Assembly (NCBI GenBank): GCA_900313005.1
Contig: ONZJ01000002.1
Location: forward strand, 3,817,909-3,881,908
Length of the DNA: 64,000 bases
Source: Rhodobacteraceae bacterium EL129
GTDB taxonomy: Bacteria > Pseudomonadota > Alphaproteobacteria > Rhodobacterales > Rhodobacteraceae
Direction: 5' to 3'
In this document: positions 40,733 to 45,878 of the stretch, one piece after another
Position numbering within the stretch: position 1 is the stretch's first letter
Layout: each line of letters starts with the position of its first letter
Position numbers and translations under genes: made by a program
Notes under the pieces: model-generated
Seen by the model: only the letters and a program-made list of their open reading frames with translations
Told to the model about the DNA's origin: nothing
The model's database searches: none

Positions 40733-42004
40733 ATGGATGTGACAGACAAGCTGAGAGCCGAGGTCGAGGCGCGGGAAGGTGATCTGGTGGCGCTGACGCA
40801 GGAACTGATCCGCATGCCCACGCTGAACCCGCCCGGCGCGCTTTATCGTGATATCTGTGACTATCTGGACAGGCGTTTGTTGAAGGCCGGGTTTGAGACG
40901 CAGCTGATCCGGGCGGAGGGGGCCATTGGTGACAGTAACACCTATCCGCGTTGGAACATCGTGGCACGGCGCGAGGGCAAGTGTGCCGGTGAATGCGTGC
41001 ATTTCAACTCTCACATTGATGTGGTGGAGGCAGGCCACGGCTGGACGGTGGACCCCTTTGGCGGTGCGTTGAAGGATGGTCGTGTCTACGGGCGCGGGGC
41101 TTGTGACATGAAGGGCGGATTGGCAGCGTCGATCATTGCGGCGGAGGTGTTTATTGACCTGTGTCCTGATTATGCCGGCGCGATTGAAATCAGCGGTACG
41201 GCGGACGAGGAATCGGGCGGCTTTGGCGGTGTGGCCTATCTGGCCGAGCAGGGGTTTTACAAACGGGTGGATCACGTGATCATCCCTGAGCCGCTGAACA
41301 AGGATCGCATCTGTCTGGGGCATCGCGGCGTCTGGTGGGCCGAGATTGAGACCAAGGGCGAGATTGCCCATGGCTCCATGCCCTTTCTGGGTGATTGTGC
41401 CGTGCGCCACATGGGGGCAGTGATGCAGGAGATGGAGACATCGCTGTTTCCCGCTTTGGCATTGAAGCGCACGGACATGCCTGTGGTGCCCGAGGGAGCC
41501 AAGCAATCGACGTTGAACATCAATTCGGTGCATGGCGGAGAACCCGAGCAGGATGTATCGTACTCGGGTCTGCCTGCGCCTTGTGTGCCGGATCGGTGCC
41601 GGATGGTGATCGACCGGCGGTTCCTGATCGAGGAAGACATCGGCGATGTGGAGCAAGAGATGCGTGATGTGTTGGAGAGCGTGCGCGCGGAGCGGCCCGG
41701 GTTTGACTATGACATCCGCGAATTGCACCGGGTGTTGCCCACGATGACCGAGCGGGACGCGCCTGTTGTGGGTGCCGTGGCCGGGGCCATCGGCCAAGTG
41801 TTTGACCGCGAGGCAGACTATGTCGTCAGTCCCGGCACCTATGATCAGAAACACATCGACCGGATTGGACGTTTGAAGAACTGCATCGCCTACGGCCCCG
41901 GCATTCTGGATCTGGCGCATAAGCCGGATGAATACGTGGGTGTCGAGGATATGGTCCAATCGGCGCAGGTCATGGTGCTGGCGTTGCACGAGTTGCTAGA
42001 ATGA
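40733..42004 (+). CDS. M20 family deacylase (ArgE/DapE family)
   Basis: A 423-residue zinc deacylase. Metal and catalytic residues appear in HFNSHIDVVEAG, YGRGACDMKGGLAA and GTADEESGGFGG, with a late His in GTYDQKHIDR. The family includes acetylornithine and succinyl-DAP deacylases; this subgroup (ArgE/DapE-like) often cleaves N-acylated amino acids, so the substrate is unknown. The final 37 codons (41894-42004) are the source of two 3'-end copies at 43219 and 44438, making this gene the left core of the cassette array. Confidence 0.88.
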   Translation: MDVTDKLRAEVEAREGDLVALTQELIRMPTLNPPGALYRDICDYLDRRLLKAGFETQLIRAEGAIGDSNTYPRWNIVARREGKCAGECVHFNSHIDVVEAGHGWTVDPFGGALKDGRVYGRGACDMKGGLAASIIAAEVFIDLCPDYAGAIEISGTADEESGGFGGVAYLAEQGFYKRVDHVIIPEPLNKDRICLGHRGVWWAEIETKGEIAHGSMPFLGDCAVRHMGAVMQEMETSLFPALALKRTDMPVVPEGAKQSTLNINSVHGGEPEQDVSYSGLPAPCVPDRCRMVIDRRFLIEEDIGDVEQEMRDVLESVRAERPGFDYDIRELHRVLPTMTERDAPVVGAVAGAIGQVFDREADYVVSPGTYDQKHIDRIGRLKNCIAYGPGILDLAHKPDEYVGVEDMVQSAQVMVLALHELLE

Positions 42005-42117
42005 GTGGAGTCGCTGCTCATTTGCTTTTAGCGCTTTGACGGTGCTGACAAGTAGTGGCATTCACTTCGTTTTGATGTAGTCCAAGAGTTGGTCTCGTTA
42101 CTTGCAGGAAGACACTC

Positions 42118-42675
42118 ATGATCAGACTATTGCGGCGTGTTAGGCATCGGATCAGCCTAAGTGTTTTTTTTAGTCTAGCTGTGATTTCACTTTATTCTCC
42201 TACTTATGCCCAAGGTGACTCATTTTGGGCATCAGTCAGAGTAGAACGTATCGTCGTCGACGTCCCAGACATTGGTCTGACTCGTGTATATAGAAAAGAC
42301 CGGAGTTTGGCGTATTCGGACGACCGCATAGTCAAGGATCTAGAGGCAGCTCTCTGGAAAGACTTTGGGTCGCTTGGAAAGGGCTCGATCCCAGTTGAAT
42401 TGAACGTTCGCCTGAATATTTTAAGCATACCGCAAATGAAAAAGGCCAGAAACATCGGTGCAAGAAGTATGATGGCCGCGTTCAAGGTAACGGTTTTGCA
42501 GATTTCTGAACAATCTAAGTTGACCCAATTGCGAGGCGTCAGAAAGTTCGGAGCGACGACAAATTGTCTCGAATTAGATGGGCGGAAGCTTCCTTTGCCA
42601 CACGAGGATGTCGCCGTTGAATATGAGGAACTTTTATCTGGGTTCTCGTGTGCATTGCGAAAAGCCTTGCAGTAG
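42118..42675 (+). CDS. Cassette cargo 1: exported protein of unknown function
   Basis: A 185-residue protein with an N-terminal signal peptide (about 1-31, ending PTYAQ). The mature part has repeated strand-like segments and two cysteines (NCLE, SGFSCALR). No family is recognised. The base composition is clearly more A+T-rich than in the surrounding genes (runs such as ttttttttagt near the start), which suggests recent transfer. AGGAAG precedes the start. It lies between the intact M20 gene and the first panC fragment, as the first cargo of the array. Confidence 0.65.
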   Translation: MIRLLRRVRHRISLSVFFSLAVISLYSPTYAQGDSFWASVRVERIVVDVPDIGLTRVYRKDRSLAYSDDRIVKDLEAALWKDFGSLGKGSIPVELNVRLNILSIPQMKKARNIGARSMMAAFKVTVLQISEQSKLTQLRGVRKFGATTNCLELDGRKLPLPHEDVAVEYEELLSGFSCALRKALQ

Positions 42676-42776
42676 TTGCCGCTAACGGAATGGGCCAAAT
42701 CTTGGTCTACTCTACCATTTTCCTACTATGGACTACACGCTGTGTTCGCTAATGGATTTCCGGATGAGTACGCAAG

Positions 42777-43058
42777 TTACTCCACCGCGATATTGTCGAT
42801 CAGGCGTACACCGGCCAACCATGCGGCGGCGAACAGTCGGGCGGGGTGTGTCGGGGCCTCTAACGTGGTCAAATCATCCGCGGCACGCAGATCGAGGTAT
42901 TCGATATCGGTGAAGCCAGCGGCCGCGAGCCGATTGACCGCCACGGCGTGCAGGTCAGAGAAGGGGTCGCCTGCGGTCAGACCTGCGGCGATGATCCTCA
43001 ACTCTTCAAACAATGCGCGGGCTTTGACGCGGGAACGGCCCGACAGCAGAAGATTGCG
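42777..43058 (-). pseudogene. panC 3'-end fragment A
   Basis: An approximately 280-bp copy of the 3' end of panC, running in the panC direction (reverse strand), encoding [18 protein letters not shown] and on through [11 protein letters not shown], with its own stop. It lacks the N-terminal two thirds of PanC. The first ~145 bp are identical to fragment B and differ at many sites from the resident panC, so the two fragments share a source other than the resident gene. It joins directly to an LRR-gene fragment. Confidence 0.85.
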
Positions 43059-43218
43059 GGTTGGATGGCTCGACCGAGTATTTCAAGGCATTGGAAGGTA
43101 AGGGGTGTGAGCTGACGGGTGGGAATTTCTAGCGCCAGGGTTACAAGCCCGGATGGCACTATCAAATGGAAGTGCAATACACGCGGATGAACGATTGGTT
43201 TGGGTTGAGCGAGACAGC
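43059..43218 (+). pseudogene. LRR-protein C-terminal fragment A
   Basis: In the plus frame it reads DGSTEYFKALEGKGCELTGG, then a TAG (43130-43132), then RQGYKPGWHYQMEVQYTRMN. This aligns with the C-terminus of the intact LRR protein at 43442 (DGSTKYFRKLEGRVHDLSGG, then RQGYRPGEQYQWMVTYWRWK). It is therefore a decayed remnant of a paralogous LRR gene, joined to panC fragment A on the left and to M20 fragment A on the right. Confidence 0.75.
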
Positions 43219-43332
43219 GGCCCCGGCATTCTGGATCTGGCGCATAAGCCGGATGAATATGTGGGTGTCGAGGATATGATGCAATCGGCACAGGTCATGG
43301 TGCTGGCGTTGCACGAGTTGTTGGCAGGGTAG
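43219..43332 (+). pseudogene. M20 deacylase 3'-end fragment A
   Basis: A 114-bp copy of the last part of the M20 gene (aligned to 41894-41995, four mismatches in 102 bp), ending in a divergent two-codon tail and TAG. It encodes GPGILDLAHKPDEYVGVEDM and on, but has no promoter or start. The left boundary with the LRR fragment is the same as in fragment B. Confidence 0.85.
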
Positions 43333-43441
43333 TACCGACTTTCGAGTGCCAAGACGGATACGCGTAAGACGTCACAAAGTTGTGAGGTCTGTTGATCGCA
43401 GCCGCCACAATTTGCCCAAATCCAAACGATACGCGTTCAGT

Positions 43442-44107
43442 ATGAAACATTTTATGACACTCCTGACCGTCGCCGCCGTGGGCTTTGCCTTCTGGCAATA
43501 TCCTGCGTGGAGAGTCTCTCAGCAGCAGTTGACCCTTGCCGAAGACCGAGTAGAGGCCATGATTGCCGAAGGGATTAACCACGTCACCTTCAGTGATCTG
43601 ACTGAACTGAGGCGGTTGCCTTCGAACATTCGCAATGCGGAGCGGCTGGAATATCTCAACCTCAGCAAAACCAGCGTGTACAACCTGTCGGGTATCGAGG
43701 GTCTGACCAAGTTAAAGCAACTGAATGCCAATCAGACCAGAGTGATGGATTTGCAGCCGTTATCGGGGTTGCCAAACCTCAGGTTGGTCTATTTGCACGG
43801 GACCTGGGCTGAAGATTTGACACCGCTGACAACATTGCCTGCTCTTGAGCAGCTGGATATCGGTAAGATGCAAATAGCTTCGCTTGAGCCGGTGACGCAG
43901 ATCGCTGGTCTGAATTGGCTTAATCTACATCGAAGCTATGCGCTGGATGGTTCAACCAAGTATTTCAGAAAGCTGGAAGGGCGTGTGCATGATTTGAGCG
44001 GGGGCAATTCATACCGTCAAGGATATCGCCCCGGTGAACAGTATCAATGGATGGTGACATATTGGCGTTGGAAAGCCCGGTTAGGTTATCAGTCCCAATC
44101 GAGTTAA
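43442..44107 (+). CDS. Cassette cargo 2: membrane-anchored leucine-rich-repeat protein
   Basis: A 221-residue protein with an N-terminal hydrophobic segment (about 4-19, signal anchor or signal peptide). Residues about 66-165 contain roughly five 22-residue leucine-rich repeats of the internalin-like type (LEYLNLSKTSVYNLSGIEGL, LKQLNANQTRVMDLQPLSGL, LRLVYLHGTWAEDLTPLTTL, LEQLDIGKMQIASLEPVTQI). A C-terminal tail of about 55 residues follows. Likely periplasmic or surface protein-binding role. The ATG at 43442 has only a weak ribosome-binding site. Its stop is 1 base from panC fragment B. Confidence 0.75.
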   Translation: MKHFMTLLTVAAVGFAFWQYPAWRVSQQQLTLAEDRVEAMIAEGINHVTFSDLTELRRLPSNIRNAERLEYLNLSKTSVYNLSGIEGLTKLKQLNANQTRVMDLQPLSGLPNLRLVYLHGTWAEDLTPLTTLPALEQLDIGKMQIASLEPVTQIAGLNWLNLHRSYALDGSTKYFRKLEGRVHDLSGGNSYRQGYRPGEQYQWMVTYWRWKARLGYQSQSS

Positions 44108-44108
44108 A

Positions 44109-44385
44109 TCACTCCACCGCGATATTGTCGATCAGGCGTACACCGGCCAACCATGCGGCGGCGAACAGTCGGGCGGGGTGTGTCGGGGCCTCTAACGTGG
44201 TCAAATCATCCGCGGCACGCAGATCGAGGTATTCGATATCGGTGAAGCCAGCGGCCTCGAGCCGCTTAACCGCCACGGTGTGCAGGTCAGAGAAGGGGCC
44301 GCCTGCGGTCAGACTTGCGGCGATGATCTCCATTTCTTCAAACAATGCGGGTGCTTTGACTCGGGCGCGGTCCGACAACAGCAGG
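44109..44385 (-). pseudogene. panC 3'-end fragment B
   Basis: The second reverse-strand copy of the panC 3' end, with stop TGA at its left end and frame reading to about [20 protein letters not shown]. It is identical to fragment A over the first ~145 bp and diverges from it further into the gene, a mosaic pattern typical of recombination or gene conversion. It starts 1 base after the LRR cargo stop. Confidence 0.85.
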
Positions 44386-44437
44386 TGGAGGTGCAATACA
44401 CGCGGATGAAAAATTGGTTTGGGTTGAGCGAGACCGC
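44386..44437 (+). pseudogene. LRR-protein C-terminal fragment B (short)
   Basis: A 52-bp piece reading VEVQYTRMKNWFGLSET, matching the last part of fragment A (MEVQYTRMNDWFGLSET). It looks like a version of junction A in which about 110 bp between panC and this point has been deleted. Confidence 0.7.
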
Positions 44438-44548
44438 GGCCCCGGCATTCTGGATCTGGCGCATAAGCTGGATGAATATGTGGGTGTCGAGGATATGGTC
44501 CAATCGGCGCAGGTTATGGTGCTGGTGTTGCACGAGTTGCTCAGGTGA
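44438..44548 (+). pseudogene. M20 deacylase 3'-end fragment B
   Basis: A 111-bp copy of the last part of the M20 gene (four mismatches in 102 bp against 41894-41995, different ones from fragment A apart from one shared). It ends with a Leu-Arg tail and TGA. Its left junction to the LRR piece is the same as in fragment A. Confidence 0.85.
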
Positions 44549-44555
44549 GGCAGCC

Positions 44556-44942
44556 TTAGCCAGCGGCTTCGAGAATCTGTACCCGTGTAACAACCTCACC
44601 AGAGCCATAAACCCGTACCAGCACGAAACCGATGTACTGGCTGCGAATGCGCTCTACCGTATGGTGGCTGCGAGAATATTCGCATTTGCCGGAGATCATT
44701 GCGCGTCGAGAAGAAGTGGTGAAGAATTTATCTGGCGTGTCACTATCTGGATTTCCGAATTTGTGAACATTTGCACGGTCTTGCCGTACGATGGCGCATA
44801 CATCGTTCAGTGGCTGGCCTGAAGAGTTGTAGGTGTCGCGAGGGCTGAGCGTGGCATAGTATTCAAACAGGAGGCTTTCAGCGGATGCCATAGCGGGAAC
44901 CATACCCAGCATCAGGGTTAATACGAATGACAAAGACTTCAT
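44556..44942 (-). CDS. Cassette cargo 3: small exported protein
   Basis: A 128-residue protein with a clear signal peptide (about 1-21, ending MASAES). The mature part contains two Cys (NDVCAIV, SGKCEYS), possibly a disulfide, and no recognised family. Unlike cargos 1 and 2 it lies on the reverse strand, facing the M20 fragment B. AGGAT precedes the start. It sits between M20 fragment B and the resident panC as the third cargo of the array. Confidence 0.65.
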   Translation of the reverse strand: MKSLSFVLTLMLGMVPAMASAESLLFEYYATLSPRDTYNSSGQPLNDVCAIVRQDRANVHKFGNPDSDTPDKFFTTSSRRAMISGKCEYSRSHHTVERIRSQYIGFVLVRVYGSGEVVTRVQILEAAG

Positions 44943-45035
44943 TGTGTAAATCCTAAAAGATAATTGCGTCAGGGGTGTCGCGTCCCCTTAGAAAAGCATG
45001 TGTTGCGGGCCTGTGTCGAGACAGATTTGGATCCG

Positions 45036-45878
45036 TTATACAGCGATATTGTCGATCAGGCGCACGCCGACCAGCCAGGCTGCGGCGAAGAGGCGGGCGG
45101 GGCGTGTGGGGGCGTCCAGAGTGGTCAGATCATCAGCCGAGCGCAGGTCGAGGTATTCGATATCGGTGAAACCTGCGGCCTTGAGCCGTTTGACAGCCAC
45201 GGCGTGCAGGTCAGAGAAGGGGTCGCCTGCGGTTAGACCTGCGGCGATGATCTCCATTTCCTCGAACAGGGCCGGGGCTTTGACACGGGCGCGGTCCGAC
45301 AGCAACAGGTTGCGCGAGGACATGGCGAGACCGTCGATTTCGCGAATGGTCGGGCAGCCGTGCACCGTTGTGCCGAGGTCCAGATCACGGGCGAGGCGGG
45401 TGACGACCTGCAGTTGCTGAAAGTCCTTTTCGCCAAAGAAGGCATCGGTGGCGGAGGTCTGGGTGAAGAGCTTGGTCACCACCGTGGCCACGCCGTCAAA
45501 ATGGCCGGGGCGGTGTACACCGTCCATCACATCGGTGAGGCCTGCGACTGAAACGGTGGTTGAAAACCCATCGGGGTATATCTGCGGCCCGTCGGGGACA
45601 TAAATCGCATCCACGTCAAAGCGTTCCAGCTTGCGGGCGTCGTCCTCTTCGGTGCGGGGATAGTTTTTCAGATCTTCTTCGGAATTGAACTGTTTGGGGT
45701 TCACGAAGATCGTGACGATCACATGATCACAGTGCTTTTTCGCCTCGGCCACCAGGGACAGATGCCCGTCGTGCAAGGCCCCCATGGTGGGCACCACGCC
45801 GATGCGCTTGTCAGCCAGTTGCCAGGGTTTTGTTGTGGCGCGCAGCTCGGGCAGCGTGCGAATAATAGGTGCGATCAT
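45036..45878 (-). CDS. panC: Pantothenate synthetase (pantoate-beta-alanine ligase)
   Basis: Joins pantoate and beta-alanine with ATP in coenzyme A synthesis. The 280-residue protein has [16 protein letters not shown] (HxGH nucleotide motif), [28 protein letters not shown] and SSRN. It overlaps panB by ATGA. Its 3' end (45036-45325) is the template-like sequence of the two panC fragments in the array, making this the right core gene of the cassette region. Confidence 0.95.

Follow-up and report, generated by a model that had tools for sequence, protein, structure and literature searches.

Displaced tails of the M20 deacylase gene and panC between unrelated cargo genes in a Roseovarius genome

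Introduction

How does a bacterial genome come to hold several unrelated genes between two conserved ones, with broken ends of the same conserved genes lying between them? The question is raised by a locus of Rhodobacteraceae bacterium EL129, a marine Roseovarius, within a stretch of 64,000 nucleotides that was analysed as a whole and is called the window here (contig ONZJ01000002.1, positions 3,817,909 to 3,881,908). At 40.7-45.9 kb of the window, a gene for an M20-family deacylase on the + strand converges with panC on the - strand, and the interval between them contains three cargo open reading frames (ORFs) and two composites of broken gene ends. Comparison of strains is the usual basis for inferring how bacteria gain small accessory genes between core genes where no mobile element is at work. 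At this locus the apparent intermediates are legible in one genome: two conserved genes have left displaced tails, a lost cargo has left a stump, and one tract records recombination between tails. The array was probably built from imported alleles of the interval, which would have been joined by homologous recombination at the gene tails and, at their free ends, by illegitimate joining.

Composites of broken gene ends

The left anchor of the array is the intact M20 gene (40733..42004, + strand; Pfam Peptidase_M20 6e-33; NCBIfam NF009558 3.7e-235), of which the 3' end at 41894-42004 is repeated. The right anchor is the intact panC (45036..45878, - strand; Pfam Pantoate_ligase 4e-93), of which the part 45036-45325 is repeated. 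Displaced 3' tails of panC are found at 42777..43058 and 44109..44385 (both - strand), with 83% and 85% nucleotide identity to the native gene, and the second is near-identical to the first over about 150 bp from the stop codon. Displaced 3' tails of the M20 gene are located at 43219..43332 and 44438..44548 (both + strand), each carrying the native base at 98 of the 102 positions compared. A preliminary description of this DNA had placed all six tails, those of the intact genes included, correctly to within a few bases. The threefold pattern of M20 tail, cargo and panC tail that it reported is right as well, but it overlooked the remnant of a further cargo and the fact that the material between the cargos consists of mutual copies.

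In both composites the order from left to right is panC 3' tail, gene remnant and M20 3' tail. The stretch 44109-44548 repeats the composite at 42777-43332, with about 113 bp less in its interior. The joint between the remnant and the M20 tail is identical in the two, and both displaced M20 tails start at the same base. The remnant is the C-terminal part of a gene for a leucine-rich repeat (LRR) protein (43059..43217, + strand), and comparison of the composites identifies its shortened copy at 44386..44437 (+ strand). It shares 25 of 42 residues with cargo 2 (E 2e-15) and is interrupted by one in-frame stop, TAG; it is thus related to cargo 2 and not a copy of it. The presence of this remnant between the tails therefore adds a fourth, mostly lost cargo to the array. 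The repeat homology ends at the stop codons, and the spacers between tails and cargos are mutually unrelated.

When the first composite (42774-43340) was compared with the entire genome, five matches were returned, all at this locus and including the query itself. Of the other four, two are to panC, namely displaced tail 2 (93%, E 5e-116) and the end of the intact gene (84%, E 7e-80). The remaining two are LRR remnant 2 with its M20 tail (94%, E 2e-61) and the end of the intact M20 gene (96%, E 6e-42). These values exclude a chance origin of the tail repeats. An assembly artefact would agree with an array that is seen in a single genome, but the tails differ by 4-17% from the native genes, the contig is 3,900,206 bases long and the composites are unlike in internal length. 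The first two of these points make an artefact unlikely, and its probability is considered negligible.

The cargo genes

The three cargos are mutually dissimilar (blastp E 2 or worse), as the preliminary description had claimed, and they have no common orientation because cargo 3 is on the - strand. Their GC content, 0.47 in cargo 1 and 0.51 in cargo 2, lies at 0.47-0.51 overall, compared with 0.58-0.64 in five neighbouring genes. All three N-termini are signal-like or hydrophobic as judged by eye. Cargo 1 (42118..42675, + strand) is an ORF of 185 amino acids with a signal-peptide-like start, and it had no match in Pfam, NCBIfam or PHROGs. The 83 other genomes of the genus, a family sample of 294 further genomes (which overlaps the genus set by one genome), plasmids, viral contigs and phages gave none either. 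Its structure prediction from the single sequence was poor (mean predicted local distance difference test score, pLDDT, 37.5).

Cargo 2 (43442..44107, + strand) encodes an LRR protein of 221 amino acids with a hydrophobic N-terminus (Pfam LRR_4 3e-11). Its matches to internalin and Xop models of NCBIfam arise from the LRRs and are far under the cut-offs. Near-full-length relatives occur in two other Roseovarius (G020, G077) and in five family-sample genomes (G119, G162, G234, G280, G300). Members of this family in other Rhodobacterales sit at other genomic places, and the 3.5-kb loci around the seven relatives gave no match to M20, panC or panB. Cargo 3 (44556..44942, - strand) is an ORF of 128 amino acids with a signal-peptide-like start, and 18 of the 83 other Roseovarius genomes have homologues of it. 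In 158 loci examined around M20 or panC, no match to any of the cargos appeared. A search of plasmid DNA returned short matches annotated as panC, as deacetylase or not at all (10 of 13 matches listed).

Integrative elements attach at the 3' ends of genes and restore the tail that they interrupt. An element of this type, using the M20 or panC 3' end as its attachment site and carrying a replacement tail, would displace the old tail at each integration, and the common first base of the two displaced M20 tails is what one would expect of it. That common joint is, however, explained by the duplication of the composite, and the displaced tails come from both flanking genes. Moreover, neither the three cargos nor the single tail ORF compared with Pfam matched an integrase or transposase, the smaller overlapping ORFs not having been scanned, and neither NCBIfam nor PHROGs assigned an integrase or recombinase family to the cargos. 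Such an element is hence a very unlikely cause of the array.

Divergence of the displaced tails

The displaced panC tails are 15-17% different from native panC, tail 1 at 46 of 276 bases and tail 2 at 41 of 270, and third codon positions predominate among these differences. The 33 differences that are common to both tails fall on first, second and third codon positions in the numbers 7, 2 and 24 (24/33 third, p 6e-6 versus one third). For a pair of working genes, own panC compared with that of the nearest relative by PanC (G062) in the same region, the corresponding numbers are 14, 12 and 49. The 18 positions at which the two tails differ from each other are distributed 6, 5 and 7. By this comparison of codon positions, the shared differences look like divergence between working genes, and the differences between the tails look like decay. 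In a panC tree of 77 rows, for which the program flagged an unsettled bootstrap, both tails and native panC form one clade (100/97), and G062 joins next (99/92). On this sequence evidence, the tails are not simple local duplicates of native panC. Their source may be a lineage closer than any genome compared; alternatively, native panC may have been replaced from such a lineage, or the tails may stem from a former second working copy.

Tandem duplications at the locus itself, with one end point within M20 and the other within panC, followed by decay and by later insertion or replacement of cargos, have to be weighed against these data. Duplications with such end points automatically leave intact genes outside and tails inside, which is the pattern observed; the composite itself was duplicated, and in another genome of the family (locus L109) an M20 tail and the beginning of the gene behind it are locally duplicated in exact tandem. 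Yet duplication predicts the same or related cargos in the copies, and the cargos are unrelated. It also leaves the LRR remnant between the tails unexplained, and the differences from native panC that the tails share resemble the divergence of working genes rather than decay. Further, the M20 tails are 4% and the panC tails 15-17% off the native genes, a wider ratio than that between own genome and G062 (15.5% and 26%), so a single date of duplication fits poorly. Tandem duplication is therefore treated as an unlikely origin, although it is to be kept in view.

A former second working copy of M20 and panC at this place, which decayed while unrelated genes were inserted between its pieces, would account for the third-position divergence of the panC tails without import from another strain. 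What is left, however, is 3' tails alone, twice and with the same joint, and a panC search of own genome gave no 5' part beyond native panC. Whole second PanC genes do occur in two relatives (G007, G009), and these are just 55-58% identical. A decayed second copy is consequently judged quite improbable.

The two panC tails carry one further signal. Within the 144 bases adjoining the stop codon they differ once, and the 126 bases that follow hold 17 differences (Fisher 2e-5, an optimistic value as the split was chosen after seeing the data). This near-identity followed by divergence is read as a trace of recombination or conversion between the tails, a step that the preliminary description had reached by inference alone.

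The interval in relatives

The genus set consisted of 84 genomes, the window's own included. Matches to panC at E 0.001 were obtained in 79 of them, and matches to the M20 tail at E 1e-6 in 55. Around the panC loci of other Roseovarius (n=78), a convergent M20 gene is present in 36, with less than 250 bp between the genes in 29 and 497-1374 bp in seven; 38 show no M20 gene over 2.5 kb or more, and four end at contig edges. The nearest relative, G062, has an empty interval of 98 bp between M20 and panC, and the next nearest, G014, carries M20 elsewhere in its genome. Each of the long intervals, those of the seven Roseovarius and of two named records (L077, L102), contains at least one long ORF. 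The M20-panC interval is thus open to insertions in several lineages.

The preliminary description had looked to this comparison for its test. The same flanks with different inserts do exist elsewhere, but displaced tails were found in none of the other Roseovarius genomes searched, and a recurrent 'system' is therefore not shown. The tail array is seen once, at one locus of one species.

Other arrangements were noted around these genes. In one clade of the panC tree (L139, L140, L161, L167), a similar-looking ORF of 115-123 amino acids with a signal-like start occupies the M20-panC interval without displaced tails; the interval of their clade-mate L137 is 161 bp. In family genomes, panC matches at E 1e-8 were present in 234 of 394, with two each in G137, G359 and G400 among the matches listed. 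At L359 1-620, in a genome that is 76% complete (G038), the spacer behind M20 continues toward a peptide-transporter-like gene, and a stretch resembles the start of panB (54% over 50 residues). No panC was found in that genome, which reflects either a panBC deletion or an assembly gap. The duplication at L109 (11150-11770) is an exact tandem copy of about 317 bp, and as it takes in the beginning of the gene that follows, which is RimO-like as judged by eye, its M20 tail was rejected as a second example.

Other repeats in the same genome

Nearby direct repeats on one strand were scanned in 1.6 of the 3.94 Mb of own genome (41%), and pairs of at least 73% identity were checked for ORFs. Six of the 36 repeat pairs obtained belong to the M20-panC locus. 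One further possible displaced tail is a stretch of 93 bp that matches the 3' end of an enoyl-CoA-hydratase-like gene at 79.6% identity and lies 4.6 kb downstream of that gene (G000:C2:1255609-1255708 and 1260217-1260309; L301, L302). Its differences fall evenly on the codon positions (8, 6 and 9), and it is decayed. ORFs of a helix-turn-helix hydrolase and of LysE-like and patatin-like proteins, named by eye, are located between the hydratase gene and the remnant. The genes around the remnant were not beside the hydratase gene in 29 relatives (about 1.5 kb or less each), and they were absent also from longer stretches of three near relatives. Since these neighbours are not found there, the hydratase tail is no evidence for the same kind of insertion.

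Proposed origin of the array

The import of interval alleles is the probable account of the array. DNA of a close lineage carrying M20, a cargo and panC would have entered the cell, possibly by a putative gene transfer agent (GTA) or by natural transformation. A GTA-type cluster is encoded in this genome (G000:C2:1994001-2013000, L369), with GTA_TIM (3e-149), baseplate hub, capsid, prohead protease and portal, and so is DprA. In a first step, a crossover in the M20 tail would have anchored the incoming fragment, whose free end, lying within panC, would have been joined illegitimately into a resident LRR cargo, of which only the 3' remnant would stay. A second fragment may then have recombined with panC; its free end, within the M20 tail, would have been attached to the end of that remnant by another illegitimate join. 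The composite of panC tail, LRR remnant and M20 tail would in this way come to lie between two cargos. Homologous recombination at the displaced tails of two such alleles could thereafter have placed cargo 2 between two copies of the composite. Later, conversion between the panC tails would have evened them over about 150 bp, and a loss of about 113 bp would have shortened the second composite. The outer genes presumably stayed intact by selection against the loss of M20 or panC function. This sequence of steps, the order of which is itself conjectural, would cost three events, a deletion and a conversion tract.

The preliminary description had proposed that DNA of relatives recombined at the shared tails. 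The excess of third-position differences, the breakpoint inside the panC tails and the end of homology at the stop codons bear out this part of it. The grouping of the tails with native panC in the tree, the joint common to both composites, the empty interval of G062, the inserts in other Roseovarius and the low GC content of the cargos also speak for the import of alleles. Homologous exchange alone leaves the truncation joints unexplained; as each composite has two of them, illegitimate joining is needed beside it. The earlier mechanism is hence partly supported, its core being right, but it is incomplete and has precedents.

Several results count against the import of alleles. No donor with the order M20 tail, cargo and panC tail was found, and in the nine relatives with long intervals no remnant of either flanking gene came up at E 0.1 or lower. 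Across the 84 genus genomes, partial M20-tail matches occur in the window's genome only, and partial panC matches only there and, cut by contig ends, in G052 and G065; likewise, the self-scan of 41% of own genome brought up no other array of this kind. The contrast in codon positions between shared and private differences is by itself modest (Fisher p 0.034), and the native panC end could, from its sequence, itself be the imported one. The M20 tails, each 4 of 102 bases off native, are too short and similar for a test of import. As for the vehicle, DprA is present also in 11 of 14 control genomes and hence says little about competence.

A wider reading is that M20-panC serves in this Roseovarius lineage as an additive cassette site, at which strains swap small exported-protein genes and stack them in tandem through recombination at the 3' ends of core genes, each displaced tail providing a new landing site, so that the array would grow without a recombinase of its own. 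It is offered as a speculative extension that is rather doubtful at present. If strains of the species bear out the reading of the scars as intermediate steps, displaced tails of core genes could be a searchable signature of additive, recombinase-free gene gain.

Comparison with known systems

The preliminary description stated that no such system had been described. Searches of a limited literature collection, with a limited set of terms, found no report of this arrangement. The principle, nevertheless, is known. The concept of the minimal mobile element is reportedly that of Saunders and Snyder in 2002.

As the passages available define it, a minimal mobile element consists of two conserved genes that frame exchangeable whole-gene cassettes, which are taken up solely by homologous recombination (PMC3898611; further passages in PMC2784325 and PMC1538595). 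The M20-panC locus resembles it, so far as those passages describe it, in the frame of two conserved genes, convergent and adjacent at 36 of 78 Roseovarius panC loci, around whole-gene cassettes that differ between genomes. Between species, other genes occupy seven of the 36 convergent loci and the intervals of L077 and L102. Integration here, too, may have used homologous recombination in the flanks, with no recombinase family in the cargos and a recombination tract in the tails; the truncation joints go beyond homologous exchange. The definition, as excerpted, refers to different cassettes in different strains, whereas here the cassettes stand in tandem with displaced tails between them. The M20-panC interval is on balance likely to be a site of the minimal mobile element kind, with the 3' ends of convergent conserved genes acting as homology arms.

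For arrays of effector and immunity genes of the type VI secretion system (T6SS) in V. cholerae, the excerpts seen propose serial displacement by homology-facilitated illegitimate recombination, a process that is rare in experiments in other organisms according to the authors (PMC5361080). The joints of truncated panC, LRR remnant and truncated M20 would fit such a process with one homologous and one illegitimate end. In both cases, to judge from these excerpts, a homologous anchor and an illegitimate end would add modules and shift back remnants, which in V. cholerae include a displaced effector 3' end. In V. cholerae the upstream part of the module provides the anchor, on a single side, and the old immunity genes are kept, whereas the M20-panC locus has metabolic-gene anchors on both sides and cargos without a shown toxin or immunity role. 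No toxin-tip, immunity or delivery-protein family was found among the cargos in Pfam, NCBIfam and PHROGs, PADLOC not having been searched. The parallel with the growth of orphan modules at rhs and contact-dependent inhibition (CDI) loci, drawn in the preliminary description, holds in the string of displaced 3' parts behind an intact gene, as far as such modules are named in that source. The displaced parts here, unlike theirs, are tails of metabolic genes and not toxin tips, and no delivery protein is seen. In merodiploids of S. pneumoniae, as the consulted part of the source has it, short donor DNA taken up by transformation pairs at an alternative repeat, which leads to unequal recombination and duplication (PMC3784515). 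Those duplications span about 100-900 kb between repeats such as remnants of insertion sequences, whereas here 1-3 kb are concerned and gene tails are the repeats.

The array looks like an unusually clear case of a known route by which bacteria collect genes. What seems new is the additive form on the tails of two core genes, with the scars of intermediate steps preserved. By analogy with the described systems, the M20-panC locus works like a fusion of a minimal mobile element and a T6SS displacement array.

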